Positions 1-46,126 of a DNA stretch of 64,000 bases are shown here, piece after piece. The DNA comes from a virus. Position numbers and translations under genes: made by a program. How positions within the stretch are numbered: position 1 is the stretch's first letter; each line of letters opens with the position of its first letter. The DNA lies in IMG/VR virus record IMGVR_UViG_3300044996_000496, positions 1 through 64,000 of that record. One strand, given 5' to 3'. The notes beneath the pieces were generated by a model that had not been told where the DNA came from, did no database searches, and worked only from the letters and a program-made list of their open reading frames with translations.

Positions 1-236
1 ACCCCCCCCCATGCTAACATTTGTTTCATGTTTAAAGCTTTAAAAATCAACCTGGGTTGGTCATCTAAAAAAATTTCCCCCTCTTTTCCTGTTTCATTTT
101 TTATCCATCCAGCCCGCTTCAATTCCAAAAATCCTCTCATAACTCCATTACACCTTTCTTTCTTCCCTCCTTTTGTTCTGGCCCCAGGCCCCTCAACCCC
201 TTCTCGCCGCTTATCTTAACTTTCCCTTTCTTTCCC

Positions 237-264
237 TTGACAGACAATCCCTTCCTATTATAGA
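237..264 (+). promoter_or_regulatory. Sigma-70-like promoter candidate
   Basis: A perfect TTGACA (237-242) is followed after 16 bases by TATAGA (259-264), close to the bacterial consensus. It points rightward into the early gene array, and would leave a leader of about 335 bases before the first gene at 607. The call rests on sequence match only. Confidence 0.4.
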
Positions 265-463
265 ACCTACTCCCCCCGTTTCTGCTAATTGGCGTTTTCA
301 AACTTAAAATCAAAAAATCTTTCATCCTAAAAAAATTTCGGGGACTATTTTTTGTTTCTTGATTTATATTAACAGTTAACTAGAGTTAAATTAAGTCGTG
401 CTCAGTAGGCAGTTTATCGAGGTGGAGACCGTCCATTTGGCTTCTGGAGGTCAAACTCAAGAG

Positions 464-477
464 TTGATCTAGATCAA
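464..477. promoter_or_regulatory. 14-bp perfect palindrome, possible operator
   Basis: TTGATCTAGATCAA is a perfect inverted repeat. It overlaps by three bases a second dyad, AACTC-AA-GAGTT at 455-466. Dyads of this size between a promoter-like site and the first gene are typical repressor or activator sites, but no regulator is identified and the function is inferred. Confidence 0.3.
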
Positions 478-606
478 GTATCAGTAACCAACAAAAAAAA
501 GAAGTGGAAAAAAAATCTGGTAGCAGTATAGAGTCTTCTCTTCTATCTCTCTCCTTGGCCCTCTCCTCCCTACTGACTAACAATAGAACGGTGGGGAGGA
601 TAAATT

Positions 607-1284
607 ATGAGTGTCAAGATTAAGGAGATCGGAATGAGTAGCCATTGGTCAAAGCGTCTTATATCTTTTGGCGTCCCAGAGGAGATTGTTGAATGGGCGC
701 AGGCTCAACCGGATTTTGCGACTGCGTGGCGTGAGTGTAAACGTGGAGATTGGATGTTATTGTTGATAGCGCACATAGATCAGTTTTTGGACGTCGATAG
801 ACTTCCTGTGCGAGCTAACGCCTTTGCCGATGCCGTTCATGATGCCGTTCTCGAAACCGACACTGCTCACACTATGACTCGCAACGAATGGCTTGCGCGT
901 CTTGCGGAAATCGTACGACAACATTTCTCAAATTTTGAGTTACCAAAAGAAAAAGTAATTGATGACGGATTGCGCGAAGCTCTTAAGAAAGCGAATTTCG
1001 AGTGTGTTAGCATGGTCGGGATGTTTTCTGAGGAATTCGACATTTTCGAGCGTCACATTCGGTGGTGGCATGGGCCGATTATCGATGAATTAGAAGATGA
1101 GATTACCTCTCTCCGCATTAAAATTGCTGAATACGAAGAATTGATGAATCTACAGCATGAACGCACTGCCGAAGCAGATAGATTATGGCAAAAAGAAAAT
1201 GGAAAAGAAAATGTTCTGCCTGACTTGGGGACTCTTATTGAATGGTTAATGAAACGAGCCGACCGGAGGACTGTTAATTCATGA
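607..1284 (+). CDS. Phage protein of unknown function with C-terminal coiled coil
   Basis: 225 residues, starting at an ATG behind a strong GGGGAGGA site. The N-terminal half contains a W-R-E-C-K-R-G-D-W-M-L pattern (about residues 42-52) that resembles a phage family I have seen but cannot name. The C-terminal part (residues about 155-200) is rich in E, K and L with heptad spacing and is probably a coiled coil. The segment EALKKANFEC (about residue 123) reappears as EALRRANYEC in the small gene at 2089, so the two share a module. First gene of the GC-rich early array; its stop overlaps the next start. Confidence 0.75.
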   Translation: MSVKIKEIGMSSHWSKRLISFGVPEEIVEWAQAQPDFATAWRECKRGDWMLLLIAHIDQFLDVDRLPVRANAFADAVHDAVLETDTAHTMTRNEWLARLAEIVRQHFSNFELPKEKVIDDGLREALKKANFECVSMVGMFSEEFDIFERHIRWWHGPIIDELEDEITSLRIKIAEYEELMNLQHERTAEADRLWQKENGKENVLPDLGTLIEWLMKRADRRTVNS

Positions 1285-1394
1285 AAAAAAGTACAAGAGA
1301 AACAATATTTAGTATTTTTGTTATTTTGAGTATTCTTTCTTTTGCGGGGCTGGCTGTCACTATTGTGAAAGAAATAGTTAAAAGTGTAAAATGA
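1281..1394 (+). CDS. Small single-pass membrane protein
   Basis: 37 residues. The ATG overlaps the end of the upstream gene, and the stop overlaps the next start as ATGA. A short basic N-terminus is followed by one hydrophobic segment (residues about 9-29) and a K-rich tail, so a single transmembrane helix is predicted. The tight coupling on both sides supports it as a real gene. Function unknown. Confidence 0.6.
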   Translation: MKKSTRETIFSIFVILSILSFAGLAVTIVKEIVKSVK

Positions 1395-1717
1395 AATACA
1401 CAAAAAAACAAATCAAGGTTATGCGTGCTCGCCTTCAGGAGTACGTGGACATCGGGTGGAACGCGGGGGTGGAGCCGCTTCAGGTGTGCCCGTTCTGCAA
1501 TCTGTTCGGCCCGAAACCTGGGAGTGGGTGCGGCTACTGTCCGGTGTATGGCGGGTGGGGCTGTAACGACTTCACCCCGATGGCTCGTCGCGAGCTGATC
1601 ATGGCCGCAGGCACGCGCTACGAGGAGGCGCATCGCGAGGCCGCTCGGGAGCATGCTCATTGGATGGTGCGTTGTTTCAACGTCGCCGACGAGGGCGGGG
1701 AATGGAGCATCGAATAA
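1391..1717 (+). CDS. Cysteine-rich zinc-binding-type phage protein, GC-rich copy
   Basis: 108 residues. Cysteines are arranged as CPFC (about 33-36), then CGYC (about 47-50), then a later single C, as in a structural zinc site. The C-terminus ends GGEWSIE. A clear paralog lies at 5183-5524, sharing LQEYVDIGWN near the N-terminus and the A-R-x-H-A-x-W-M/L ... GEWSIE C-terminus. This copy is visibly GC-rich and the other AT-rich, so the two have different compositional histories. Role unknown. Confidence 0.75.
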   Translation: MKYTKKQIKVMRARLQEYVDIGWNAGVEPLQVCPFCNLFGPKPGSGCGYCPVYGGWGCNDFTPMARRELIMAAGTRYEEAHREAAREHAHWMVRCFNVADEGGEWSIE

Positions 1718-1908
1718 AACTAAAATCGTGCCCGTTCTGCGGGAGCAGTGGAACGCTCAGTTACGAAGCGAGTGGTGAGAAAGGTGTCCGGGTCATCTGT
1801 AATGCGTGGAAAAGTTGTTGTGCCTAGGGTCCAATTGGGTTAACCGAAAAAGAAGCGGCATTGGCCTGGAACCGCCGGACGGGGAGTGGGGTGAAAAGCA
1901 ATGAATGA
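1702..1908 (+). pseudogene. Lar-family restriction-alleviation-like gene broken by an in-frame amber codon
   Basis: The frame from ATG 1702 reads a Lar-type pattern: SCPFCGSSG near the N-terminus, VICNAWKSCCA, then TAG at 1825-1827, then GPIGLTEKEAALAWNRRT and a stop at 1906-1908. Lar-type proteins have C-P-F-C-G, a second C-x2-C, x-G-P, then a T..EA...WN.R motif. Every element is present on both sides of the stop, so a single base change explains it. The family protects phage DNA from type I restriction in known cases (E. coli Rac Lar). It is a decayed gene unless the amber is suppressed. The start overlaps the upstream gene. Confidence 0.7.
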
Positions 1909-2092
1909 CGGCCAGGGAGATGCGACCAACACCTGTTCCTGCGGGTACGATCTCCGCGTGACTGTCCATTGTGGAACGTGCGGGAAAATCTACTCGCGAT
2001 GTCTTGGATGCTACCTCAAGACGCGCATGAACCGATGTCAATGCGAAGGGCAGATCAAGAAACACCCCGATTACGCGGAGGAGTGGGCATGA
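1901..2092 (+). CDS. Small double zinc-ribbon protein
   Basis: 63 residues with eight cysteines: CSC, CGTC, CLGC and CQC, consistent with one or two zinc sites. The start overlaps the end of the Lar-like frame and the stop overlaps the next gene as ATGA. Part of the GC-rich small-gene array. No enzyme motif; probably a small nucleic-acid or protein binding factor. Confidence 0.65.
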   Translation: MNDGQGDATNTCSCGYDLRVTVHCGTCGKIYSRCLGCYLKTRMNRCQCEGQIKKHPDYAEEWA

Positions 2093-2286
2093 GTGACGAA
2101 TTGTGCGAAGCGCTTAGGAGAGCGAACTACGAATGTAAAATTGCCTCTCTCCGCATTGAAATTGCTCATCTGCAAGAGATCGCAAGAAAAGCTATAAGCA
2201 AGAATTCCGAGGAAAGTATGGTGGAGTATGTTCTAAGTCTTCGCGCCGCTCTTCGCGAGATAGCGGGAGAGGGAAAACCACGATGA
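2089..2286 (+). CDS. Small coiled-coil protein sharing a module with the gene at 607
   Basis: 65 residues from the ATG that overlaps the previous stop; a longer in-frame start at 1969 would lie inside the upstream gene and was rejected. It begins MSDELCEALRRANYEC and continues with a charged helix rich in I, L and E. The EALRRANYEC segment matches EALKKANFEC in the 607 protein. Likely a helical accessory protein; function unknown. Confidence 0.6.
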   Translation: MSDELCEALRRANYECKIASLRIEIAHLQEIARKAISKNSEESMVEYVLSLRAALREIAGEGKPR

Positions 2287-2543
2287 ATTTGGCACAGAAA
2301 GCGGCCAAGTTAGACGAGGAAATAGAGTACATTGAGTATGAGTTTTCGTCGTACGAAATTGAACTTGCTAGACTTAATGCCATTCTCCGCGCTTTTCGAG
2401 AGGTGGCAAGAGAGGCATCAAGAAAGACGCTGCTACAACTCGTTCCAACTAATGACAACGTGATTGACCGCGTTCTCGCTGAAATGGAGTCGGAATCACC
2501 TTTTGCGATCTCCAGGGAGTTTGGTCTGGAACAAAAGCCATGA
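2283..2543 (+). CDS. Small coiled-coil protein
   Basis: 86 residues, overlapping the upstream stop by four bases. The sequence is dominated by charged heptad-like helices (EEIEYIEYEFSSYEIELARL). No catalytic motif. Part of the translationally coupled early array. Confidence 0.65.
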   Translation: MNLAQKAAKLDEEIEYIEYEFSSYEIELARLNAILRAFREVAREASRKTLLQLVPTNDNVIDRVLAEMESESPFAISREFGLEQKP

Positions 2544-2701
2544 TAGAAAAAGTGCTTTTTGTAGGGTTGATGCTTGCGACTTTGGTTTTGCTTATTGATG
2601 CGCTTGAGTCCAGAACTATTTTGGCTTTTGCGAAGTGTGTTTTAGGTATGTGTATTTGTATTTTTTTGGCTGGGGTTGTTGCGACAAAACTCTTACAGTA
2701 A
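2540..2701 (+). CDS. Small membrane protein with two predicted helices
   Basis: 53 residues. The ATG overlaps the previous stop. Two hydrophobic stretches, about residues 4-20 and 28-49, predict two transmembrane helices. Function unknown. Confidence 0.55.
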   Translation: MIEKVLFVGLMLATLVLLIDALESRTILAFAKCVLGMCICIFLAGVVATKLLQ

Positions 2702-2729
2702 ATGTTTGGAGCAGGTCGGAGCAGAATCC

Positions 2730-2972
2730 ATGAAAGATTTTCGCGTTATTGTAACTCTAGAATCACGCAACGGACTTTTGATATCATCGCTTGAGGAAAT
2801 TGACCGCGAGAAAAACAGAAAGATCTCTTCCAGTACGGCGAGTGCCTTGGCTCTAGTAAGGGCTTGTCGAAACAGCAAGGAAAAAACAATCCGGCTATTA
2901 CAACAAAAATGCCTAGATGACTTCTTGCATTATGAACGAGAGTTAGGCGAGGTCATGGAGGAGAAGCCATGA
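2730..2972 (+). CDS. Small charged helical protein
   Basis: 80 residues from ATG 2730. An upstream in-frame ATG at 2676 lies inside the previous gene, so the later start with GGAGCAG upstream is preferred. It is mostly charged helix with an alanine/leucine-rich centre. The stop overlaps the next start as ATGA. No recognised family. Confidence 0.6.
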   Translation: MKDFRVIVTLESRNGLLISSLEEIDREKNRKISSSTASALALVRACRNSKEKTIRLLQQKCLDDFLHYERELGEVMEEKP

Positions 2973-3148
2973 GGCGTAGATTCTGGGCTGTCGTCGAGAA
3001 GAGTACGGGGAGGGTGCGCATTGTAGCTCAACTGAATCTGCCCTCTGTTTACTGCACGAAAACGGATGCGCAATCGATGTGTCCTCCTGGCGGGGTGTAT
3101 GTTGTCCGAGAGGTCAATATCCTTGTCAAGAGAACTGGAAAGCCATGA
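2969..3148 (+). CDS. Small basic protein of unknown function
   Basis: 59 residues beginning MRRRFWAVVEKSTG, coupled by four-base overlaps on both sides. It looks like a compact beta-rich domain. No recognised family. Confidence 0.55.
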   Translation: MRRRFWAVVEKSTGRVRIVAQLNLPSVYCTKTDAQSMCPPGGVYVVREVNILVKRTGKP

Positions 3149-3315
3149 GTGCTTACATTGGGTACGTGATGCTCGTAGTTCTGCTTCTAGCTCTAATCCT
3201 GTCGGTGTGCCGTTCCGTTGGTGCAAGGCTGGCCGGGATCATGCTGGGTCTCGCGGTTGTCATTGTTGCGTGGTTTGTTGTGGCAGTCCGTTTGAGCATG
3301 GGGTCTAAACCATGA
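3145..3315 (+). CDS. Small membrane protein, tandem copy A
   Basis: 56 residues from the ATG that overlaps the previous stop. It begins MSAYIGYVMLVV and holds two hydrophobic segments. The next gene begins MSIFIGYVMLFL, so the two are tandem paralogs. A longer in-frame start at 3079 would lie inside the upstream gene. Function unknown. Confidence 0.6.
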   Translation: MSAYIGYVMLVVLLLALILSVCRSVGARLAGIMLGLAVVIVAWFVVAVRLSMGSKP

Positions 3316-3473
3316 GCATTTTCATTGGGTATGTGATGCTATTCCTCGCTCTCGTCGTGCCTCTTGTTTGGAGTTCATGGCGAGAAAGAAGCGGGAAGTT
3401 TATTTTCTGGTTTTTGGTTTTTTTGTCTATATGGGTTATGATCGCTGCGAGGCTTATCGAGGGGTTTAGATAA
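3312..3473 (+). CDS. Small membrane protein, tandem copy B
   Basis: 53 residues, overlapping copy A by four bases and sharing its N-terminal IGYVML motif. Two hydrophobic segments (about residues 2-20 and 30-47) are separated by a basic linker WRERSGK. The duplication suggests a small membrane complex or divergent alleles. Confidence 0.6.
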   Translation: MSIFIGYVMLFLALVVPLVWSSWRERSGKFIFWFLVFLSIWVMIAARLIEGFR

Positions 3474-3497
3474 GGCTCTGAGTGAAGGAAAAACCAA

Positions 3498-3818
3498 ATG
3501 TGTGAATGTTTGAAACGGGCCGATGGAACATGGCATGTTGATGAGTGTTGTGCTTGGCTTATGGACAACTGGCATGGTAAGGGACTTGAAGCCTATGAGG
3601 CTGGCTGGAAAGCTGCTTGTGAGGAATGCGCAAAAGCGTGTAGTACCGAAAAAGATATATTACAAGAACTACATGAGCGCGAGATAAAGACAGAACAGGG
3701 TACAATCTACTGCGAGGGCGCTTCAACCGGGGCTAAAATCTGTGCCGCGTTGTGCAACGCACTTGGAGAGCGTGGGTCGAAACAGGAGCCACAAACCGAT
3801 GCGAGTAATTACTTTTAA
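3498..3818 (+). CDS. Cysteine-rich phage protein
   Basis: 106 residues behind a GAAGGA site. Nine cysteines, with clusters near the N-terminus (MCEC, DECC) and in the middle (CEECAKAC), suggest metal binding. The tail is polar and probably disordered. It marks the end of the GC-richer block; genes after it are strongly AT-rich. Confidence 0.6.
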   Translation: MCECLKRADGTWHVDECCAWLMDNWHGKGLEAYEAGWKAACEECAKACSTEKDILQELHEREIKTEQGTIYCEGASTGAKICAALCNALGERGSKQEPQTDASNYF

Positions 3819-3836
3819 ATTAAAAGAAAGAATAAA

Positions 3837-4109
3837 ATGAGATATCTTAATATTTATCTTAACTCAGCAATTTGTCCACAGTGTGGAGAAAGAGTACCAG
3901 TTTTTAGTTCTTTTGGGGGTTATATATTTGTTAAACACTCTATACTTGCAGAAGAGGAAGTTAGTTCAATTGCATCTATAGAAAAATTTAAATTATGTGA
4001 ACCAGAGGATGGGGTAGAGCGGCGGTACATGAGCGATGAATTGGTTGATTTTATTATCTCGACGCTTGAAAACAATAATCCATTTATTGCAGATGTTCAA
4101 TATGACTAA
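3837..4109 (+). CDS. Small protein with N-terminal zinc-knuckle motif
   Basis: 90 residues with CPQCGE near residue 13, half of a zinc ribbon, followed by a charged C-terminal region. AT-rich, unlike the genes before 3.8 kb. No family recognised. Confidence 0.6.
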   Translation: MRYLNIYLNSAICPQCGERVPVFSSFGGYIFVKHSILAEEEVSSIASIEKFKLCEPEDGVERRYMSDELVDFIISTLENNNPFIADVQYD

Positions 4110-5182: not shown

Positions 5183-5524
5183 ATGCGGTACTCAGACGAT
5201 CAAATTGCGGTTATGTTAGAAAGGCTTCAGGAATACGTCGATATTGGTTGGAACAATACACCAAGACAACTTGGCTTGTGTCTATTGTGCCAATATATGA
5301 AAAATAGATCTGGATTTGACTGTGAAAAATGTTTTCCGTGCCCATTGGCTTTAAAAAATGGTTCGCCAGGATGTATGGGCAAACATAGACTACGTAGATT
5401 GTCCATACGATATTCGGGTGAGTCAAATGACTCTGAGGCCAGAAAAGCTGCTCGTATTCATGCCCGTTGGCTCATGAAATGCTATAATGCTGCGGACGAG
5501 AATGGAGAATGGAGTATAGAATAA
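5183..5524 (+). CDS. Cysteine-rich zinc-binding-type phage protein, AT-rich copy
   Basis: 113 residues, a paralog of the gene at 1391-1717. Shared landmarks are LQEYVDIGWN near residue 16, a CxxC and further cysteines in the middle, and the A-R-x-H-A-R-W-L-M-K-C-Y-N-A-A-D-E-x-G-E-W-S-I-E C-terminus. It has an extra cysteine-rich stretch between these. Start ATG follows GAAGGAAAAG. Confidence 0.75.
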   Translation: MRYSDDQIAVMLERLQEYVDIGWNNTPRQLGLCLLCQYMKNRSGFDCEKCFPCPLALKNGSPGCMGKHRLRRLSIRYSGESNDSEARKAARIHARWLMKCYNAADENGEWSIE

Positions 5525-10197: not shown

Positions 10198-10257
10198 AAC
10201 AACAAGCTTGTATAACTATATGACAAAGTTGGTTTGGTTTTTATACAAAGGACATTT

Positions 10258-10635
10258 ATGTGGACAAGTAGCTACACAGAGGACAACGACAAGTTTCCAG
10301 AGGCAGCAGCAGTGGCCAGATTTTTTGATAAAAATCCAGTCAAGGCTCTTCAGTTTGTTATTAATGTTGTAAAAGTTATTATGGTCAGATATGGAACTAA
10401 TGTAGAAAGTATTGATGTGAAAGATTTGGCCGAAATATGTTCTGAACATAATATTATCATAGCTGGTAACGGAACTGATAGTTCAATAGTAGCTATTCCA
10501 GATCATGAGGAAACGGCACTGGTAATGTATAAAAACAATTTACAAAAAGGAAACAGCGTTCCGCATGATGCAACAAAAGAATTGTTAAAACATCTTATTG
10601 CAGAAAAGGAGAAAAGGTTAAATGAGGGTTATTAG
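10258..10635 (+). CDS. Paralog of the 5572 protein
   Basis: 125 residues from ATG 10258, which has AAAGGA upstream; a TTG at 10234 in the same frame is less likely. It shares the helix, the V-x-x-x-D-L pattern and the AGNGTDSSIVAIPD strand with the 5572 protein. The two lack similarity in their tails. It overlaps the following lipoprotein gene by 14 bases. Confidence 0.65.
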   Translation: MWTSSYTEDNDKFPEAAAVARFFDKNPVKALQFVINVVKVIMVRYGTNVESIDVKDLAEICSEHNIIIAGNGTDSSIVAIPDHEETALVMYKNNLQKGNSVPHDATKELLKHLIAEKEKRLNEGY

Positions 10636-11437
10636 TGTTATTTTTATTTTTTGTTTGATTGTTTTATCTGGTTGCGATAGAACATGTGAAATTAATGATT
10701 GTGTTATGTTTGATGAATATGCGCTCATTAACAATATGTGGGGAATTTATAGAATAGAGCCTGGAGCAATATATAAACAATGCATAATGCATAATGATTA
10801 TAATCTTCCGGTCGGATGGAGATGGAATTGCACATCAACAATAAATAATGTTAAAGGATTCCCTCAAATTTTGTATGGGAAGAATCCGTTTTCTGGTATA
10901 CAAACAAAATGCGCATTACCTATACAATTAAAAAATATAAAAAATTTACGAGTTGTGCTCAACCAAACCTCTAGTTCAAATGGAATTTATAATCTTGCAT
11001 TTGATATGTGGATATCCTCTTCTCCAGATGATTTAGTTGCCACTCTAACGCATGAAATTATGATATGGATAGATGGAAATATGTTTCCGATTGGAGTTGA
11101 CCAAGGCGCTTATTACACTGATTGTACTATTGATAACAATGAGTACTCTGTATATCGTATACCAAAAAACTCAAATGGGGATTTTCTTATAATTTTTATT
11201 TTAAGTGATCTTATATCTAAGGATAAATACTCGTACCCAAGCCCATATGTATCAAATGTAACGTTGTGGCCATTGGATCTCAATTCCTTCTTCAAGTTTT
11301 TATACTCTGAAAAAATGCTTTCTGATGATTTGTACTTGGATGCCGTAGAACTTGGGACTGAGATATGGTGGGGAAATGGTGGAATAAAGATAAATAAATA
11401 TGACGTTGTACTTATTGAAGATATTGGATTGCCGTAG
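10622..11437 (+). CDS. Lipoprotein resembling glycoside hydrolase family 12 endoglucanase
   Basis: 271 residues. The N-terminus is a lipoprotein signal with lipobox LSGC (Cys18). The mature part shows GH12 landmarks: INNMWG (about 37-41), KGFPQILYGKNPF (78-90), LAFDMWIS (125-132), EIMIWID with candidate nucleophile Glu145, and ELGTEIWWG with candidate acid/base Glu247. GH12 enzymes cleave beta-1,4-glucans or xyloglucan by a retaining mechanism. The lipobox predicts membrane anchoring in the infected cell. A glucanase on the host envelope is unusual for a phage. It precedes the endolysin gene, which fits a lysis, release or nutrient role. Confidence 0.78.
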   Translation: MRVISVIFIFCLIVLSGCDRTCEINDCVMFDEYALINNMWGIYRIEPGAIYKQCIMHNDYNLPVGWRWNCTSTINNVKGFPQILYGKNPFSGIQTKCALPIQLKNIKNLRVVLNQTSSSNGIYNLAFDMWISSSPDDLVATLTHEIMIWIDGNMFPIGVDQGAYYTDCTIDNNEYSVYRIPKNSNGDFLIIFILSDLISKDKYSYPSPYVSNVTLWPLDLNSFFKFLYSEKMLSDDLYLDAVELGTEIWWGNGGIKINKYDVVLIEDIGLP

Positions 11438-11461: not shown

Positions 11462-11923
11462 ATGGAAATTACTGCATTTGATATTGCGCAACGTTTCATC
11501 GGAATTAAAGAGATGGGCGGTAATATGAATAATCCGCAGATCATGGCCATGCTTCAGCTGGATAACGGTTGGCCAAAAAATGATGAGGTGCCATGGTGCT
11601 CTGCGTTTGTGAATTATATTTGCTGGCTGTTGAGGCTTCCTAGGTCGAAGAGCCTAGCGGCTAGGTCGTGGCTTGGCGTTGGACAAAAAGTAAGAACCCC
11701 AATTGATGCTGTGGCTGGATTTGACATTGTTGTTCTTAGCAGGGGGGGTGGCGAACAACCGGGGCCTGAGGTTCTAGATGCCCCTGGGCACGTTGGGTTT
11801 TTTGCCGGATATTCAGGGAGCAACAGCCGCATTATTGATGTTTTAGGCGGCAACCAGAATGACTCTGTTAATGTGTCCAAATTTGATACATCTAGAATTT
11901 TAGATATTAGAAGACTTGCCTAA
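11462..11923 (+). CDS. Endolysin, TIGR02594-like CHAP/NlpC-fold peptidase
   Basis: 153 residues. Landmarks are VPWCSAFVN with candidate catalytic Cys46, AARSWLGVG (67-74), DIVVLSRGG, GHVGFFAG with His110, and LGGNQNDSV near 128-136. These match the TIGR02594 family, small cysteine amidases or endopeptidases that cut peptidoglycan. No signal peptide is visible, so release to the wall would need a holin. It lies directly after the GH12-like gene and before a strong terminator. Confidence 0.85.
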   Translation: MEITAFDIAQRFIGIKEMGGNMNNPQIMAMLQLDNGWPKNDEVPWCSAFVNYICWLLRLPRSKSLAARSWLGVGQKVRTPIDAVAGFDIVVLSRGGGEQPGPEVLDAPGHVGFFAGYSGSNSRIIDVLGGNQNDSVNVSKFDTSRILDIRRLA

Positions 11924-11938
11924 AAAATAGTATATACT

Positions 11939-11970
11939 AAAAGGCCGGGGAGAAAACTCCCCGGCCTTTT
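11939..11970. terminator. Perfect bidirectional rho-independent terminator
   Basis: AAAAGGCCGGGGAG (11939-11952), an AAAA loop, and CTCCCCGGCCTTTT (11957-11970) form a perfect 14-bp stem. The A-run and T-run flank the stem on both strands, so it can stop transcription from the left (endolysin operon) and from the right (the leftward gene at 11989-12435). It sits exactly between these convergent genes. Confidence 0.93.
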
Positions 11971-11988
11971 ATTTTTAGCTGCTCTACT

Positions 11989-12435
11989 CTACCACTTCAA
12001 ACCAACCGACAGGTTAGTTGGCGGCTGTCCGTCCGCGTTATCAGAGTAAAGCTGGAACACTTCGAATGTAGCTGGACCTATCTTTGTCCCAACACCTGCC
12101 AGCGTGCTCCAATCCCCAAGTAGCGAGGAGGAAAACACTGTTCTAGGGTTTCCAAAATCAATATCATCAGTTGGCTTATTGATTCCGGCTGCTGCATCGA
12201 CATGCAGATATAAATCAATTGCCCTAACCCCGAAATACGTATAAGATTCGTAGTTAATTTCATTCAAAAGAGTCGCATTACTCCCGTAATGTACAAAATT
12301 AAGCCAGTTGTCCTGATGGACTCTATAATCACCAACTGTAAACGATGCCGCTTCTGACTTGTTGCATGTAATCCAAAGCAAGAAAATCACAACAATTGCT
12401 GCAATAATAATCATTCCTACTGTTCTCTTGTTCAC
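11989..12435 (-). CDS. Exported or membrane-anchored protein of unknown function
   Basis: 148 residues, GTG start with GAAAGGAAATG upstream. A hydrophobic N-terminal segment (about 8-22), followed by SEAASF, is a signal peptide or anchor. The mature part is aromatic and beta-rich and ends NLSVGLKW. The terminal aromatic residue after alternating residues recalls outer-membrane beta-barrels, but the protein is short. It stands alone on the minus strand and ends at the shared terminator. Confidence 0.65.
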   Translation of the reverse strand: MNKRTVGMIIIAAIVVIFLLWITCNKSEAASFTVGDYRVHQDNWLNFVHYGSNATLLNEINYESYTYFGVRAIDLYLHVDAAAGINKPTDDIDFGNPRTVFSSSLLGDWSTLAGVGTKIGPATFEVFQLYSDNADGQPPTNLSVGLKW

Positions 12436-13074: not shown

Positions 13075-13400
13075 ATAACTTGGGTAAATGGAAATTAGTT
13101 GCAGTAAGTCGTGACGAAGTTTTAGATATGTCAATTCTTGGAAAAATTTTGTCATCTATTTGGAAAACTTCTATGACTAATCCAAATGAAGGGTTCGTTA
13201 AAATTATCAGTATTGGGGTTAGTAGGAACATTGTCTCGTTCTGTTCGTGTGATTTTGACGGTAAGGCTTATGGACAAATATATACGCAAAATTTATCAGT
13301 GTTTTTGGATTGGCATTATTTATTAGTTAAAAACAGCAATGTTAGTCGAGATAATTCAATCATAACTGATAATGATGGATTTGCTACAGGGGATGCATAA
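13071..13400 (+). CDS. Phage protein of unknown function
   Basis: 109 residues, GTG start overlapping the previous stop with TAGGGAG upstream. Mostly beta-type sequence. Its last base is shared with the start of the sigma factor gene, so translation is coupled. Confidence 0.6.
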   Translation: MNNLGKWKLVAVSRDEVLDMSILGKILSSIWKTSMTNPNEGFVKIISIGVSRNIVSFCSCDFDGKAYGQIYTQNLSVFLDWHYLLVKNSNVSRDNSIITDNDGFATGDA

Positions 13401-14038
13401 TGTCTAGCTTTAAAGTTAATGATACGATTCCAGATGTTTTAGACAAATATCTTAAAAACAGAAAGATAAAATACAGAAATATTTTAGTTGAATTTTATGA
13501 ACCATATGTTAGAAAGATTATATTTACTGTTACTAAATGTAATACACAATATAGTGATGATTTGTATGGCGCTGGATGTATAGCTCTAATTAGTGCCATA
13601 GAAAAATTTGATGATAATAAAGGAATGTCTTTAAAGTCTTGGATATTTATAAAAGTAAGAAATAAGATAATTGACGAAATAAGAGCAATAACAAAAAACA
13701 GAAAACAAGAAGAAAGAACATTTGTTGATATTAATCTTATTAGAAATTCGGAAATAGAAAACTTATACCTTATGGATATTAATACAATTAATAGAATTGA
13801 CGATATTGATAATATGATATCATATGATAGATTAGTTCATTTTGTTAATAATGCATTATTTCTAAGTGACAAGGAAAAGATATTGTTTAATCTTATATAT
13901 GTTAAAAAACTTAGTTACGGAGAAGCGGCAAAGAGGGTCGGGTATAAGAACGAAGGGTGCGCGTACACTGCCGTAAATTTAATAAGAAGAAAAATAAGAA
14001 AATCAATTAATTGTATCCCAATGGAGAATGCGGCATGA
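13400..14038 (+). CDS. Phage sigma-70-family sigma factor A
   Basis: 212 residues. Region 2 is visible at about 50-98: SDDLYGAGCIALISAIEKFDD, then SLKSWIFIKVRNKIIDEIR, covering core binding and -10 recognition. The C-terminal part (about 150-205) has LSDKEKILFNLIYVKKLSYGEAAKRVGY and a second helix, as in a region 4 helix-turn-helix. It should redirect host RNA polymerase to phage promoters. The stop overlaps the GroES-like start as ATGA. A second sigma factor lies at 16030-16644 on the other strand. Confidence 0.85.
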   Translation: MSSFKVNDTIPDVLDKYLKNRKIKYRNILVEFYEPYVRKIIFTVTKCNTQYSDDLYGAGCIALISAIEKFDDNKGMSLKSWIFIKVRNKIIDEIRAITKNRKQEERTFVDINLIRNSEIENLYLMDINTINRIDDIDNMISYDRLVHFVNNALFLSDKEKILFNLIYVKKLSYGEAAKRVGYKNEGCAYTAVNLIRRKIRKSINCIPMENAA

Positions 14039-14406
14039 ACATTAAAATGCTTGGTGATTATGTAATGATAAAAAGAATTAATGTGTATAAAACTACGGGA
14101 GGTCTTCATCTTCCGAATGAGTGGGTTGACGAAAGGCCGAAGGGAATTGTTGTTGCAATAGGCCCAGGTAAATTTAATCGTGACGGTGATTTTATTTCAA
14201 CATCTGTACAAATTAATGATATAGTTGTTTTTCATAAATTTGATGGATCAATCATCGGAATAGACGGTCAAAAATACTATATACTACACGAACATGAAAT
14301 ATTGGTTATATTAGAAAATTATGAATACGAAAAAAACCATGATATACAAGATGATATATTAAATTCCACAGGTTTGGAGGTGAGCATGGATGGCAATTGC
14401 ATTTAA
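14035..14406 (+). CDS. GroES-like co-chaperonin (Cpn10 family)
   Basis: 123 residues from ATG 14035. The first 95 residues follow Cpn10: LGDYVMIKR at the start, a mobile-loop-like YKTTGGLHLPNEW (18-30), GIVVAIGPGKFNRDG, INDIVVF, and DGQKYYILHEHEILVILE. About 25 extra residues follow. Cpn10 caps GroEL and helps fold substrates; T4 gp31 is the known phage parallel, needed for capsid protein folding. No GroEL gene is in the window, so it presumably pairs with the host chaperonin. Confidence 0.9.
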   Translation: MNIKMLGDYVMIKRINVYKTTGGLHLPNEWVDERPKGIVVAIGPGKFNRDGDFISTSVQINDIVVFHKFDGSIIGIDGQKYYILHEHEILVILENYEYEKNHDIQDDILNSTGLEVSMDGNCI

Positions 14407-14653: not shown

Positions 14654-14678
14654 TACATTTGTGGAGGATAAAGCGCTG

Positions 14679-15062
14679 GTGAAAATATTCAGTGCCATAG
14701 TGTTAATTATTATGTTTTCTAGCGGTGTTTTTGCCGATATTAGAACTTTCTACTTTACCGAACCATTTGACAATAGTTATGGCCCGATAAATGGACCAGT
14801 TGCATCAATAATAGCGAAATGGTCATATACAAATCCCTCCACAATGTCAGATGGTATTTGGTGGAACAGTGCGAACTTAGTTGCTGGAATTATAACAAGA
14901 GCAGCGCCTGGGGGCACTAGTTTACTTAAGTGCTCGGCCTATCCGTCCTCGTACATTATGCTCATGGTTTGTGATGAGGCAAACAATTGTACGTATTCAA
15001 ATGGTTGCTATGTTTCACCAACTGTTTGCACTGTTCCACACTATCTCGGTAACACAAAATGA
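14679..15062 (+). CDS. Small secreted cysteine-containing protein
   Basis: 127 residues from GTG 14679, which lies 10 bases after GGAGGA; the in-frame GTG at 14661 precedes that site. The signal peptide ends SSGVFA-D (about residue 20). The mature part is rich in S, T, W and aromatics, with six cysteines in the second half, possibly disulfide-bonded. No family recognised. It is one of several exported proteins in this phage. Confidence 0.6.
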   Translation: MKIFSAIVLIIMFSSGVFADIRTFYFTEPFDNSYGPINGPVASIIAKWSYTNPSTMSDGIWWNSANLVAGIITRAAPGGTSLLKCSAYPSSYIMLMVCDEANNCTYSNGCYVSPTVCTVPHYLGNTK

Positions 15063-15942: not shown

Positions 15943-16102
15943 CATAAAATCCGGCTCCTTTTAATATCATGAGTCCACCCCACGATGGAACTCTTGACAA
16001 TTTTTCGCCGCATTTACAAAAATATTCTTTTACATCATTGATATTGTGTGAGATTTCTTGCTCAGATTCGCATTTGTTACATCTGTAGATGTAGGTTGGC
16101 AT
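15908..16102 (-). CDS. FmdB-type small zinc-ribbon protein
   Basis: 64 residues starting MPTYIYRCNKCESEQE, the hallmark of the FmdB/CxxC_CxxC regulatory zinc-ribbon family, with the second pair CKCG about 22 residues later. Start chosen at 16102 with GAGGA upstream. It overlaps the sigma factor B gene by 73 bases and the convergent cREC-like gene by 35 bases. Probably a small nucleic-acid or transcription-linked protein. Confidence 0.75.
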   Translation of the reverse strand: MPTYIYRCNKCESEQEISHNINDVKEYFCKCGEKLSRVPSWGGLMILKGAGFYANDYSNKKSEN

Positions 16103-16644
16103 TTTGCATTTATCCTCATTTTTCTGCGTAATTTTTTTATAGCCTGCTGGTGGAGTGCGCGAATCCATTGTCCACTGCAATTTTTTTGTTTTGCTATTTC
16201 GTCAAATGATAATCCATCATAATATTTTAGTTTTACTATTTCTTTGAGTTGAGGATTTAGCTTTTCGATGGCTTCGCGAATTATGGTTGTATCATGTATA
16301 TCCATTGTATCGTTCGGTATTCCAAAAGTTAATTTATCCATGTCTATTTTGGTGCTCATTTCATCAATTGATATAATTATTGGTTTATATCTTTGTTTAT
16401 TTTTTTGATAGACTTTTCTTCCGTCTTTGTATTTAATGTATGCGTAAATTCTTTTTCTAATTTGAACCCATGCCCAATTTGTAAATGACCCCTTTGACTC
16501 ATCGTATGATCTGGACGCTTCCCACAATCCTATTTCAGATTCTTGCAATATGTCATCACTTTCATGCATTGTTCCAGTTCTTTTCATTATTCTGAATGCA
16601 TACATATGTGCTAATTTCTTATAATCTTTTATGTCTATTTCCAT
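16030..16644 (-). CDS. Phage sigma-70-family sigma factor B
   Basis: 204 residues. Region 2 at about 27-72: SDDILQESEIGLWEASRSYDESKG then FTNWAWVQIRKRIYAYIKY. Region 4 at about 125-172: LNPQLKEIVKLKYYDGLSFDEIAKQ then a recognition helix WIRALHQQAIKKLRR. The two-domain layout matches small phage sigma factors. It lies on the minus strand, opposite sigma factor A, together with a small zinc-ribbon gene. AGGAG lies 12 bases before the ATG. Two sigma factors imply a staged transcription programme. Confidence 0.87.
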   Translation of the reverse strand: MEIDIKDYKKLAHMYAFRIMKRTGTMHESDDILQESEIGLWEASRSYDESKGSFTNWAWVQIRKRIYAYIKYKDGRKVYQKNKQRYKPIIISIDEMSTKIDMDKLTFGIPNDTMDIHDTTIIREAIEKLNPQLKEIVKLKYYDGLSFDEIAKQKNCSGQWIRALHQQAIKKLRRKMRINAKCQPTSTDVTNANLSKKSHTISMM

Positions 16645-16843
16645 GTTGTACCGTTGCTCCTATTTTATCTTTGTGTTGTGTACAATTTGTGTTGTCTGTA
16701 CGCGAGCAGTTGGCTACACCTCAGGCAAGGGGCGACTGTGGTCTTACTTCTTATGCTGTTATACCCTACAGGGGCCAGAGTGGTTCCAGTTTATTTTGGA
16801 GGGTTTTGTGCAAACTGAAAGTCTTTTTAAGACAAATCAAAAA

Positions 16844-17758
16844 ATGAATCCAGAACCGGATATCGTTGTTTATCATGGTGATCAAGATGGGTTTTGTGGT
16901 GCATGGCTTTTGCATCACGTTTTCCCTAATGCGGAGTATGTTAAAGCCAGTTATGGTGATAGAAATTTGTTTGATTTTATTGTGGGGATTTCTAGTAATA
17001 AGATTGTATTTTTTGTTGATTTTACTTTTTCATTGTTACGGGAAAATTATGATATAGCTAAAATAGCAAAACATGTTGTAATAATGGATCATCATAAAAC
17101 AGCAATTGAAAAACTAAATAATCTTGAGTGTAACAATGTAACAAAAATTTTGGATAACAGCAGATCTGGATGTAAAATGGTTTATGATTGGTTAATTGAA
17201 AATGATCCATATGTACCTTTACCATGTAATGCTTCCAGTATAGTCTCTACTGTATGTGATTATGATTTATGGACTTTCAAACTAGCCGGAACACAAAACA
17301 TCTTTGCAGCTATAGCAAGTTACCCGATGACATTTGATTCTTGGAATCGTATGTGTCTTATGTCAAATGGTGCTCTTTATGCAGAAGGTGCCATAATAGA
17401 GCGTTATAGAGCAACATTAGTTGATTCTATTATAAAGGATAACATAGTAATGTTAGATCTTAATGATGAAATTAGGATTTTTGCTGTAAATACTCAAAAT
17501 GAATTTGCCGTAGCTGGTAGCAAATTATCCAAACTTAATTTCAATAAACACAAAATTGGTGCAACATTTTATTTTAACTATGATGGCATGATAGTGTCTT
17601 TGCGGTCGCCGGATGACGGTCCAGATGTTAGCGATATTGCGAAAAAATTTGGTGGTGGTGGCCATGCTCATGCTGCAGGATTTCAGGTAAAATATTGTGA
17701 CATATTAATGTTAAGTAATGGAAAAACCGGGTCAATAAGGATAACTAGAGAACAATGA
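16844..17758 (+). CDS. DHH/DHHA1 phosphoesterase (NrnA-like)
   Basis: 304 residues from ATG 16844. Motif I is HGDQDGFCGAW (His11, Asp13, Asp15), motif II is the VDFTF region, and motif III is MDHHKTA (82-84). The DHHA1 signature GGGGHAHAAGF is near residue 280. These enzymes use manganese to degrade short oligonucleotides or pAp. In a phage it could recycle nanoRNA or remove signalling nucleotides. The open frame extends to 16631, but that part lacks conserved sequence. The stop overlaps thyX. Confidence 0.85.
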   Translation: MNPEPDIVVYHGDQDGFCGAWLLHHVFPNAEYVKASYGDRNLFDFIVGISSNKIVFFVDFTFSLLRENYDIAKIAKHVVIMDHHKTAIEKLNNLECNNVTKILDNSRSGCKMVYDWLIENDPYVPLPCNASSIVSTVCDYDLWTFKLAGTQNIFAAIASYPMTFDSWNRMCLMSNGALYAEGAIIERYRATLVDSIIKDNIVMLDLNDEIRIFAVNTQNEFAVAGSKLSKLNFNKHKIGATFYFNYDGMIVSLRSPDDGPDVSDIAKKFGGGGHAHAAGFQVKYCDILMLSNGKTGSIRITREQ

Positions 17759-18516
17759 ACAAAATCAATAATAAGCGATTTAATGTATTAGACCGAGGAT
17801 TTATTGAGCTTATTGACATGATGGGTAGTGACAACAGAATTGTCTCATCGGCCAGAGTGTCTTATGGAGAAAAAACAAAAGGCGAAGAATCTGATAAAAA
17901 ATTAATTTATTACCTTCTTAGCAATAAGCACGAAACCCCATTTGAACATGTAGTTTTTACATTCAAAATCAAGTGTCCTATTTTTGTCATGAGACAATGG
18001 ATTCGCCACAGGATAGCATCTGTAAATGAAATTTCTGGGAGATACACAAAGTTTAATGAAGTCGAATATTATGTTCCAGAGTTAGCTCGCGAACAAGATA
18101 AAAAAAATAAACAATCATCCAATATTGCAAAATGGTCTCCAACAGAACATGAGCTATTCAAGAAAATTGTAAGAAGCTCAACCGAGCGATCTGTGCAGGT
18201 TTACAAACAATTGTTGCAATATGGAATCGCCAAAGAAATTGCAAGAATAGTATTGCCAGTAAATATGTATACAGAATTTTACTGGACAATAAATATGCGT
18301 TCGCTTATTAATTTTATCAAATTACGTTGTTCTGATGATGCTCAATTTGAAATACGAGAATATGCTAAAATAATTAGAGATATTGCATTTACTAGATTAC
18401 CCTGGACGGCTGAAGCAATTATAAAATTACAAGAAAAACCAATAAAACAAAAAACAGAACCCGAGTTGATCATAAATAATGACAAGGAGTCCTGCGCCCA
18501 GCAGTCCGCTGTATAG
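17755..18516 (+). CDS. thyX: FAD-dependent thymidylate synthase ThyX
   Basis: 253 residues. The ThyX signature RHRIASVNEISGRY (84-97) is intact, preceded by ETPFEHVVFTF (60-70) and followed by a helix with ARIVLPVNMYTEFYWTINMRSL, the substrate and flavin region. It makes dTMP from dUMP using FAD and methylene-tetrahydrofolate. The dUTPase gene nearby supplies dUMP. Coupled to the DHH gene by a four-base overlap. Confidence 0.95.
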   Translation: MNKINNKRFNVLDRGFIELIDMMGSDNRIVSSARVSYGEKTKGEESDKKLIYYLLSNKHETPFEHVVFTFKIKCPIFVMRQWIRHRIASVNEISGRYTKFNEVEYYVPELAREQDKKNKQSSNIAKWSPTEHELFKKIVRSSTERSVQVYKQLLQYGIAKEIARIVLPVNMYTEFYWTINMRSLINFIKLRCSDDAQFEIREYAKIIRDIAFTRLPWTAEAIIKLQEKPIKQKTEPELIINNDKESCAQQSAV

Positions 18517-20365: not shown

Positions 20366-21313
20366 ATGCGAGTTTCTGGTTTAATGTGTGTGTGGAATTG
20401 TGTTGAATTTGTCGAGCAAGCAATTTTAGGTATTATTGATAAAGTTGATGAACTTGTTGTAGTTGATGGTTCATGGAATCTGGACAACAAAAAAGGCTCC
20501 ACTGACGGCACAGAAGAAAAAATAAAGAAGCTTGCCAAACAGTTTGACAAAAAGATTTTTTTTCTGCAATATACTCCAACTCATCCAGAAGAATATCAGC
20601 ATTACTACAATGATGAGCACAAAGAGCATGTTCTTGGGCATTTTAACAAGCATAAAAATCCGTTCTACAAGCCAGGAAGGTTATCGCAACAACAGCTTGG
20701 AAGGGATTTTGGATTAAATTTTATACGAAGCAGATACTGCGACGACCCGGACGGTCATTGGCTACTTATTGTTGATAGTGATGAATTTTATCCAGAATGG
20801 CAGTTTGTAAATGGTAAGACATTTCATGATATTATAGAGGAATCAGTGGCCGACGCTACAAAAGTAGCCTTTCATGAGCCTACGCTACTGGCCATAGAAG
20901 CCATGAACTTTTACTTTGATAGTAGACATTTTGCTAATGAGAGATTTAACAGAATATTTAGACTAAGGCGCGATTCTTGGTTTGTTGATTCTAATACGAT
21001 AACTGGTTGTATGGATTATAGATATAATATACCAAAGATACAGTGCATGTTTTTTCATTATAGTTATATTGGTTCTGCTTTCAGAATGGAGTCGAAACTA
21101 GACCGTTGGGATGACTCAATTGTAAAGCCTTGGATAGAAAGGGTTTATAATGAGCCAAACTTTTATCAAAAGATGAGGAACAACGGAGGGGGCATCCATT
21201 TGTTAGGCAGCGTACACCCAGGTTACCGTCGTTACATGCTCATGGAGTACGGGGGCGAGCATCCAGCCCTGGCCTCTTTGGCCTTAGGAAAAATTGTAAA
21301 TGAAAATACATGA
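20366..21313 (+). CDS. Glycosyltransferase, GT2-like (GT-A fold)
   Basis: 315 residues, first gene of the sugar cluster, behind AGGAGAGGTG. The N-terminus MRVSGLMCVWNCVEFVEQAI then VDELVVVDGSW is the GT-A nucleotide-binding start. LLIVDSDEFYPEW (about 130) supplies a D-x-D-E metal motif. It has the general form of family 2-type transferases acting on surface glycans. The end overlaps the next glycosyltransferase by 14 bases. Confidence 0.78.
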   Translation: MRVSGLMCVWNCVEFVEQAILGIIDKVDELVVVDGSWNLDNKKGSTDGTEEKIKKLAKQFDKKIFFLQYTPTHPEEYQHYYNDEHKEHVLGHFNKHKNPFYKPGRLSQQQLGRDFGLNFIRSRYCDDPDGHWLLIVDSDEFYPEWQFVNGKTFHDIIEESVADATKVAFHEPTLLAIEAMNFYFDSRHFANERFNRIFRLRRDSWFVDSNTITGCMDYRYNIPKIQCMFFHYSYIGSAFRMESKLDRWDDSIVKPWIERVYNEPNFYQKMRNNGGGIHLLGSVHPGYRRYMLMEYGGEHPALASLALGKIVNENT

Positions 21314-22163
21314 ATTACATAAAGGTTTTACAATAGGATTTCCAACTTGGAATAGATTAAATTATGTAAAAGCATGTGTTGAAAGTATTATTAAAAATAG
21401 TGCTTTTGAGCATGAGATTATTGTTCATATTAACGGTTGTACAGACGGAACTGTTGAGTGGGCAACCGATATGAAAAATAAGTATAGTTTTTTTGATTAT
21501 ACATATTCTGATAAAAATCTTGGTGTTGTTTTGGGCCACAATATTGCAATCAATAAAGGAACTAAAGATGTAGTATTAATTTCTGATAATGATATTTTAT
21601 TTTTTCCAGGTTGGGATATTGAGTTAGTAAATTTTGCTGAAAATAATGATGCTGATAAAAAATGGTGGATTAACTCTACTCCAATTGAGCCTCGCGGCGA
21701 CAGTCCATCATGTATTGCCCCTATGAATTACGGCACAACGATTGAAGAATTTAATTGGGATGCTGTTTTGCTTGATATAAATTATTTGCGTGGATTTAAA
21801 AAGTCAGTAAATTCCAATGTGTGCCCTGCGCTACTGTGGAGAGATAGTTTTGATAGCATTAACGGTCTAAATGAAGAGCTTGGGCTTGGGCTTGGCGCAG
21901 AGGATGATTTTGCTTTTAGAATGTGGAAGCATGTTGGTTGCAGAAATTTTGTTACAGTTCCGAATAGTCTAGTTTATCACTTTGCAGCAGGATTGAGCGG
22001 CGTGCAATCTTGGCCAGATAGGCAGAGTCACATGAATTTTCGTGATAATTATTTTATACAGAAATATGCTATGTGCAAAGAAGAGTTTATTTTTAATATT
22101 TTACGTAGAGGTAAACCTTGGACAAAAGATGGAATGGTTAGTTATGAGCAATATAAAAAATAG
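21300..22163 (+). CDS. Glycosyltransferase family 2
   Basis: 287 residues. FTIGFPTWNRLNYVKACVESI (10-30), EIIVHINGCTDGT (39-51), then LISDNDILFFPGW (about 97-109) with the D-x-D motif, and LGAEDDFAFRMW (about 200) as the catalytic acidic region. This is a classic GT2 inverting layout. Overlaps both neighbours, so translation is coupled. Confidence 0.85.
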   Translation: MKIHELHKGFTIGFPTWNRLNYVKACVESIIKNSAFEHEIIVHINGCTDGTVEWATDMKNKYSFFDYTYSDKNLGVVLGHNIAINKGTKDVVLISDNDILFFPGWDIELVNFAENNDADKKWWINSTPIEPRGDSPSCIAPMNYGTTIEEFNWDAVLLDINYLRGFKKSVNSNVCPALLWRDSFDSINGLNEELGLGLGAEDDFAFRMWKHVGCRNFVTVPNSLVYHFAAGLSGVQSWPDRQSHMNFRDNYFIQKYAMCKEEFIFNILRRGKPWTKDGMVSYEQYKK

Positions 22164-23307
22164 AATTTTATCTCTCGGTAATCAACCTATTGCTAATGGA
22201 TTTTTGGAAAAGCAGCATTATGCTACTGAATTTAGATACGATCTTTCTGTATATTTTGACAATAAAACTAAAATGTTAAAATTATGCAACACTGTTGCAA
22301 AAGAGCGTTTGTTTAATGCCGAATATGCATACAAAACTTCACACTCAAAAACAATGAGGGATCATTTTTATGATCTGGCTTTGATGTACAATTCTGCTAA
22401 AGTTATTGAAATAGGCAGTAACGACGGTGCGTTTATAGGTAATTTTGCTGGTGGTAAGAGCGTGGCGGTTGAGCCATGTGACAATATGGCAGAAATTACT
22501 AGAAAATTAGGAATATTGACATATAATAAATTTTGGGATATTGATTTAGCTGATGATATATTAACAGATTTTGGTAGTAAATTTGATTTGGTGTTTTCTG
22601 CAAATACAATGTGTCATATTGATGATTTAGATGGTGCATTTAGTGCCGTAAGTCACATTCTTGATGACGATGGAGTATTTATTTTTGAAGATCCGACTGC
22701 TTATAATATGATTTTAAATACTTCGTATGATCAAATATATGATGAGCATGTTTATGTGTTTAATTTGCATGGACTTTACGATATTTTGGCAAGAAATGGA
22801 TTGTATGTGTATGATGTTCTTGCATTGCCAAATATACACGGTGGTTCATTAAGGATAATATGCAAAAAACGTAAATATGATATTGATATACCGTGGTTCA
22901 GAAAAGAGGGACTTATTTTTGCAGATTCTGAAATTGGGTATCATATGTTTGCTCGTAATGTTTATGCATCTAGAGATAATCTTATATATTTATTGGAAAC
23001 ATTAAAAAATGATCACAAAAAAATTATAGCATATGGTGCGACATCTAAATCTACTGTTATATTTAATTTTTGTAATATTGGTGTTGATTTAATAGATTAT
23101 ATTATTGACACAACTCCAAGTAAAATAGGCAAGTTTTCTCCAGGTATGCATATTCCAATAGTAAATTTAGAAACTATACCAGATGATGTGGATTATGTAT
23201 TTTTATCTGCATGGAATTATGAAAAGGAAATATTATGTAAAGAGCGTGATTTTATTAAGAGAGGTGGAAAGTTTATTTCCCACGTTCCAATGATAAGGCT
23301 GATATGA
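22144..23307 (+). CDS. Sugar C-methyltransferase, NovU/TylCIII/TcaB9-like
   Basis: 387 residues. An N-terminal GNQPIANGFL segment, an S-adenosylmethionine site VIEIGSNDGAF (about 83-93), and the active-site DEHVYVFNL (about 200) equivalent to the Glu-His pair of TcaB9-type enzymes, then the C-terminal Methyltransf_14-type domain with IAYGATSKSTVI. These enzymes add a methyl group to C3 of a dTDP-keto-sugar. The usual N-terminal zinc cysteines are mostly missing. ATG 22144 chosen; a start at 22129 is also possible. Confidence 0.85.
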   Translation: MSNIKNRILSLGNQPIANGFLEKQHYATEFRYDLSVYFDNKTKMLKLCNTVAKERLFNAEYAYKTSHSKTMRDHFYDLALMYNSAKVIEIGSNDGAFIGNFAGGKSVAVEPCDNMAEITRKLGILTYNKFWDIDLADDILTDFGSKFDLVFSANTMCHIDDLDGAFSAVSHILDDDGVFIFEDPTAYNMILNTSYDQIYDEHVYVFNLHGLYDILARNGLYVYDVLALPNIHGGSLRIICKKRKYDIDIPWFRKEGLIFADSEIGYHMFARNVYASRDNLIYLLETLKNDHKKIIAYGATSKSTVIFNFCNIGVDLIDYIIDTTPSKIGKFSPGMHIPIVNLETIPDDVDYVFLSAWNYEKEILCKERDFIKRGGKFISHVPMIRLI

Positions 23308-23735
23308 GGACTACTTGTACAAATACATCCATAGATGATGTTGTTGAATTTAATTTTAAAAATTTTCCAGATAATAGTGGAATACTTGTTCCAGTAGAAT
23401 TTAAATTAGATGTTCCGTTTTATGTTGAAAGAGTATTTTATGTTTATGACTTTGCTAAGGATTGTGTTAGGGCAAAGCATGCTCATATAGAATCATTGCA
23501 GATAATTGTTTGTTTATTTGGGGAAGTTGAACTTAAGGTTAATGATTGTACTAGAGAAAAAAAGATATTATTAAATAGACCATTTAAGGCTGTTTATATT
23601 CCAAGAATGATTTGGGTTGAGATGACATCCATGCAAAATAACTCAATAATTTTATGTTTAACAAATACTCATTATGATAAGCTTGATTATATTATAAATT
23701 ATGAGGAGTTTGTATCATGCAAAAGAAAGTACTGA
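23304..23735 (+). CDS. dTDP-sugar 3,4-ketoisomerase, FdtA/QdtA/WxcM-like cupin
   Basis: 143 residues, single cupin. RAKHAHIESLQIIVCLFGEVEL (57-78) corresponds to the RGxHAH...Q motif of FdtA/QdtA, with candidate catalytic His59 and His61. AVYIPRMIWVEM is the second cupin strand. The family turns dTDP-4-keto-6-deoxyglucose into the 3-keto isomer, feeding a DegT aminotransferase. It lies between the C-methyltransferase and the epimerase. Confidence 0.85.
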   Translation: MRTTCTNTSIDDVVEFNFKNFPDNSGILVPVEFKLDVPFYVERVFYVYDFAKDCVRAKHAHIESLQIIVCLFGEVELKVNDCTREKKILLNRPFKAVYIPRMIWVEMTSMQNNSIILCLTNTHYDKLDYIINYEEFVSCKRKY

Positions 23736-25302: not shown

Positions 25303-25314
25303 AGGGATAGTATT

Positions 25315-25992: not shown

Positions 25993-26012
25993 TTTTTTAT
26001 GGAGTGGTTTTT

Positions 26013-46102: not shown

Positions 46103-46126
46103 TCAGTTCGAGGGAAGGAGAGGGTG

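Follow-up and report, generated by a model that had tools for sequence, protein, structure and literature searches.

A GH12-family glycoside hydrolase with a lipoprotein signal peptide encoded by a tailed phage

What use would a tailed phage have for an enzyme of glycoside hydrolase family 12 (GH12), a family that normally serves bacteria and fungi in cutting plant or cellulose-like glucans? The question is raised by an open reading frame (ORF) in a stretch of 64,000 nucleotides (hereafter the window) from an IMG/VR virus contig of 87,578 bases (record IMGVR_UViG_3300044996_000496), which an earlier note on this DNA had described as a GH12-like endoglucanase carried by a phage as a lipoprotein. 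We assign a probability of roughly 0.85 to the reading that the infected cell produces and exports the product, a retaining GH12 endo-β-1,4-glucanase, and that lipidation at Cys18 keeps it at the membrane, where it would cut β-1,4-glucan. The phage, in other words, probably plants a glucan cutter on the envelope of its host during infection (Table 1).

Table 1. Features of the GH12 locus, in window positions
Feature	Position	Strand	Basis
Upstream ORF, no assigned family	10234..10635	+	ORF list; 14-base overlap with GH12 start
GH12 glycoside hydrolase gene, 271 amino acids, lipoprotein signal peptide	10622..11437	+	PF01670, phmmer to PDB, AlphaFold model
Signal peptide and lipobox (residues 1–18, LSGC), predicted lipidation at Cys18	10622..10675	+	Direct reading; lipobox rule
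Glu145 codon, predicted nucleophile (THEIMIW)	11054..11056	+	Aligned column, E in 20/20 bacterial GH12s
Glu247 codon, predicted acid/base (GTEIWWG)	11360..11362	+	E in 18/20 bacterial GH12s
TIGR02594-family protein, endolysin / tail-lysozyme type	11462..11923	+	NCBIfam 85 bits, cut-off 70.55
Terminator-like hairpin, strong, 15 pairs (9 G-C), then T-rich tail	11938..11971	+	Sequence analysis

Gene, fold and active site

The ORF begins with ATG and is intact, a strong ribosome-binding stretch lies ahead of it, and its GC3 is 0.269, compared with 0.287 ± 0.055 for the 45 long plus-strand ORFs of the window. It encodes a GH12-family protein with a GH12 fold. The Pfam profile PF01670, which represents the sole family matched, scores 54.7 bits (cut-off 27; E = 2e-14) and aligns over profile positions 2–202 of 207. 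The top phmmer matches in the PDB are 2jem (E = 2.6e-19) and 2jen, both of a GH12 xyloglucanase from Bacillus licheniformis, and the phage protein is 31% identical to the 2jem chain. A GH12 profile made from 20 bacterial sequences, with the phage protein left out, gives it 141.2 bits, whereas the highest score among 500 shuffled versions of it is 8.2 bits, which rules out a chance or artefactual match.

The AlphaFold model, made with nine aligned sequences, has a mean pLDDT of 71.8 and a pTM of 0.74, and is poor at residues 200–213. Foldseek places 2jem first (E = 5.8e-19, TM 0.82 on the target), as does VIA (Z = 26.8, rmsd 2.4, 225 residues aligned), where the best 43 rows are all GH12 (Z = 21.2–26.8). 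GH11 xylanases rank below the GH12 rows (Z ≤ 19.3), and GH11 or another jelly-roll family is set aside on this ground and on that of the Pfam result. A tail-borne depolymerase is likewise rejected, as the viral structures of BFVD match poorly (TM on the query ≤ 0.34 among the 50 matches listed) and the gene lies about 24 kb away from the structural module. The earlier note had proposed a profile search and a structure prediction as checks on the GH12 identity; the profile score bears the identity out, and the predicted fold is the GH12 jelly roll.

GH12 enzymes use a retaining mechanism with two glutamates (PMC7303141), and the two residues that had been put forward as catalytic, Glu145 in EIMIWID and Glu247 in GTEIWWG, indeed occupy the conserved catalytic columns of the bacterial GH12s. 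The Glu145 column holds glutamate in the genome relatives, glutamine in 2jem and alanine in 2jen; the two exceptions in the Glu247 column (loci L081 and L082) have methionine. In addition, N38, W40, P81, G86, P100, E145, M147 and G245 are identical in all 20 bacterial proteins, and W149 is conserved in 18 of them. The E-x-M-x-W spacing of the phage protein equals that of the nucleophile, Met119 and Trp121 of the GH12 enzyme NopAA (PMC7303141). Three tryptophans of the Bacillus xyloglucanase are replaced in the alignment, by Lys87, Cys70 and Phe90. Because these aromatic positions are changed, xyloglucan is not to be assumed as the substrate of the phage enzyme, which may act on a different glucan.

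Export signal and gene neighbourhood

The N-terminus carries a lipoprotein signal that ends in a lipobox with a +1 cysteine, MRVISVIFIFCLIVLSGC. As the earlier note had claimed, the LSGC motif lies upstream of the catalytic residues; it ends at Cys18 and is preceded by a hydrophobic signal stretch. The lipobox rule, a PROSITE-like regular expression applied to ORFs of at least 60 amino acids, picks out the GH12 ORF and no other among the 197 such ORFs in the window, and finds no lipobox ORF in two long relative records. Export of the protein and lipidation at Cys18 are predicted on this sequence basis. The residue after Cys18 (+2) is aspartate, which in enterobacteria keeps lipoproteins at the inner membrane; that rule may not be this host's, and serves here as a hint only. 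Cys22 and Cys54 fall in the columns of a cysteine pair found in 4 of 20 relatives and missing from 16, always as both cysteines or neither; a smaller alignment puts Cys27 instead of Cys22 opposite the first cysteine of the pair. The all-or-none occurrence suggests a Cys22–Cys54 disulphide, and with it an oxidising compartment outside the cytoplasm.

The ORF upstream of the GH12 gene has no Pfam or PHROG match. The TIGR02594 ORF, which starts 24 bases downstream of the GH12 ORF, also matches PHROG 1259 (tail lysozyme; E = 1.8e-21), and could encode a tail lysozyme rather than an endolysin. The hairpin that follows it is the probable end of the transcript. Promoter-like matches around the GH12 gene number 21, against 20.0 in shuffles, and since there is no excess we claim no promoter. 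Phage genes on the same strand flank the GH12 gene, with an RNA ligase upstream and TIGR02594, sigma, GroES and ThyX genes downstream. The locus thus has the make-up of an auxiliary gene, a gene of metabolic type with virus genes on both sides, and the terminase–portal–capsid–tail module also lies downstream. Matches of neighbouring ORFs to Avl9 and PsaA_PsaB, both under the cut-off, were set aside.

Several other features of this region are recorded as side observations. Two separate sigma-70-like factors are encoded on opposite strands (13400–14038, plus; 16030–16644, minus) of the one phage. A GroES-like co-chaperonin, a DHH/DHHA1 phosphoesterase and ThyX occur in one gene run (14032–14406 and 16811–18516). 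Two small ORFs near the GH12 gene (11989–12435, minus; 14661–15062, plus) have N-terminal hydrophobic segments and are candidate envelope or exported proteins, with no family match above cut-off.

Carrier phage and distribution of GH12

The carrier, which the earlier note had called a phage, is a true tailed phage: the same window encodes a terminase, a portal, a major capsid protein of HK97 type and a tape-measure protein, together with a glycosyltransferase. The terminase is about 29% identical to that of a Slashvirus (Bacillus phage Stills) and about 28% to that of Microcystis phage MaeS, and the capsid protein is homologous to those of Stills and MaeS (Slashvirus-like capsid identity about 25%). 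Terminase relatives occur in 42 IMG/VR records, the best at 37–41% identity; they were found by alignment with the Stills and MaeS terminases, the terminase of the carrier alone having retrieved none. Two relatives (103 and 111 kb) have the terminase-to-tail module in common with the carrier (16 and 22 matches among 187 ORFs examined), and positions 1–20 kb of the window, the region of the GH12 gene, are almost unshared with them, the one match being ThyX in relative G008. The hints as to the host point two ways: the TIGR02594 kin are mostly found in phages of Gram-negative hosts (by organism names in 510 records), whereas the terminase and capsid kin belong to phages of Bacillus and Microcystis. 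A search for TIGR02594 in 12 related records, run without a positive control, gave no match. Shine–Dalgarno-like motifs precede 27 of 50 long ORFs, as against 16% of random sites.

Elsewhere in the window, a cassette of sugar-nucleotide and glycosyltransferase genes (21300–28932) comprises GT2, NAD epimerase, hexapeptide transferase, methyltransferases, DegT aminotransferase and a GT1-like gene; matching hexapeptide, DegT and GT ORFs are present in G008, and the cassette may serve host surface glycan remodelling or particle decoration. A 798-residue protein (46124–48520), encoded within the structural module right after the major capsid gene, has glycosyltransferase matches and possibly glycosylates the particle. 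Positions 1–4000 have a G+C content of 0.459, compared with 0.33–0.40 elsewhere in the window, and ORF 1391–1717 in this G+C-rich part appears by eye to be a paralogue of ORF 5183–5524 in the AT-rich part.

No GH12 gene was found in the other phage and virus records searched. The profile PF01670 has no match in the whole records of Stills, MaeS and three others, nor in any of the 42 terminase-related IMG/VR records, many of which are fragments, and the gene is missing from the two longest close relatives. Three tblastn queries, the phage protein and one GH12 each from Bacillus and Streptomyces, found none in 50,697 phage records. Pattern scans of IMG/VR, which cover pattern-bearing sequences only and may lack records close to the window's own, gave 1, 112, 107 and 63 candidate stretches with zero GH12 relatives, and a direct DNA pattern of the same scope gave three loci, none of them with GH12.

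The phage protein is 20–31% identical to bacterial GH12s (26–29% to eight genome loci), and no close bacterial copy was found in the genomes sampled, the best identity being 33%. Searched with the phage protein, 398 Pseudomonadota genomes yielded relatives in 6, and 398 Bacillota genomes likewise in 6, each count including the centre genome. From 33 ORF matches, 20 were kept and joined with the phage protein in a tree of 21 rows; left out were eight duplicates, the near-identical L014, two pieces of L073 with an in-frame stop, L070 (a second and weaker hit in the genome of L016) and the weak L076. The phage protein stands alone on a long branch of 1.84 changes per column, which adjoins a Bacillus–Streptomyces–Curtobacterium group with weak support (85/76), so that its placement is not firm. 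Because of this long lone branch, the rarity and distance of the relatives and the phage-like GC3, the GH12 gene does not look recently captured from any genome sampled.

Possible roles and known systems

In the mechanism that we propose, the GH12 protein would be made during infection and then exported, lipidation at Cys18 would hold it on the outer side of the infected-cell membrane, and there Glu145 as nucleophile and Glu247 as acid/base would cut a β-1,4-glucan chain. The glucanase activity, the exact glucan and the timing are inferred here. The earlier note had offered two roles, auxiliary metabolism and an attack on capsule glucan or a cellulose biofilm, and either may be right. As to purpose, we tentatively, and only slightly, prefer the clearing of β-glucan (cellulose or a comparable exopolysaccharide) from the envelope or matrix of the host itself, which could halt synthesis of the glucan, or could let the progeny escape while the adjacent endolysin-type gene is at work. 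The cutting might fall at the time of lysis, because the TIGR02594 gene adjoins, just before the strong terminator-like hairpin. Against host cellulose speaks the closest solved GH12, a xyloglucanase, whose namesake substrate comes from plants and is not a bacterial cellulose. The same relationship favours a different purpose for an unchanged enzyme and anchor, namely that of an auxiliary metabolic gene whose displayed product would free oligosaccharides from plant xyloglucan or mixed-linkage glucan and so fuel phage production. This is a real possibility, if one we hold with somewhat less conviction, and it gains from virus-borne hydrolases of plant polymers described in permafrost soils, one of which was tested as an endomannanase (PMC6786970); however, scans of part of the window's ORFs turned up neither a recognisable sugar transporter nor any other gene of sugar catabolism, and a moose-rumen study found no redirection of carbon metabolism by viral genes (PMC6784887).

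Two further explanations would remove the enzyme or the gene from the argument. Phage lipoproteins that block superinfection exist, and a protein that had lost catalysis might act at the cell surface as such an exclusion lipoprotein or as a lipid-anchored glucan binder; the long branch and the change of several subsite aromatics would fit this. We consider it improbable, as the protein retains its two catalytic glutamates and the invariant residues of the active site, for which a non-enzyme has no need. Less probable still, and very unlikely, is that bacterial DNA carrying GH12 was joined to the phage contig by misassembly or mispackaging, as the absence of GH12 from the other phage records searched and from the two longest close relatives might suggest. 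The 14-base overlap with the upstream ORF, the same-strand phage genes on both sides, the phage-like GC3 and the lack of a close bacterial copy all argue against it.

The depolymerases with which phages attack host polysaccharides generally belong to the particle and work from the outside, ahead of infection. That a lipoprotein is encoded at a distance from the structural genes implies that it acts while infection is under way, and from the very cell that is infected. Carried further, the preferred clearing of the host's own matrix leads to a speculative picture, which we think rather unlikely in its full form, of an infected cell that becomes matrix-cutting: the lipid-anchored GH12, at a periplasmic or outer face and expressed with the lysis gene, would cut nascent cellulose-like glucan in the manner of BcsZ, leaving the progeny untrapped from the biofilm. 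If host cellulose is cut, phages would be able to shut down matrix production from within; if plant glucan is cut, one more family would enter viral carbon cycling.

Viral glycoside hydrolases of other families are already known, and the novelty lies in GH12 as a phage-borne family and in its unusual membrane anchor. If the reading is true, the open-access literature, as far as it was searched, would hold no earlier phage GH12 and no earlier lipid-anchored glucanase from a phage. No GH12 was found there as a viral auxiliary gene or on viral contigs (a search of article texts), and GH12-like text matches in the viral literature either had to do with GH120, GH127 or bacteria or did not name GH12 itself; it may nevertheless have been reported before. 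Soil viromes have yielded a GH5 endomannanase (PMC6786970) and a GH75 chitosanase (PMC9485262), likewise phage-borne polysaccharide hydrolases and probable auxiliary genes, which belong to other families and have no lipid anchor noted in the available texts. A mangrove soil virome lists a viral endoglucanase under GH119 (PMC6460857), and GH12 is not named in the main text of that study or of PMC6786970. BcsZ, the envelope endoglucanase of the cellulose synthase operon, lowers cellulose production by its catalytic activity (PMC5070118); it is a host gene of family eight, likened here by function, with no kinship claimed. With the Bacillus licheniformis xyloglucanase (2jem, 2jen) and its Bacillus, Paenibacillus and Pectobacterium kin, the phage protein has in common the whole domain, the fold and both catalytic columns. 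These relatives are bacterial, and eight of their ORFs have no cysteine at the aligned lipobox position, whereas the phage protein lacks their GWHWTEGY stretch and has extra residues near 158–161 and 187–198.
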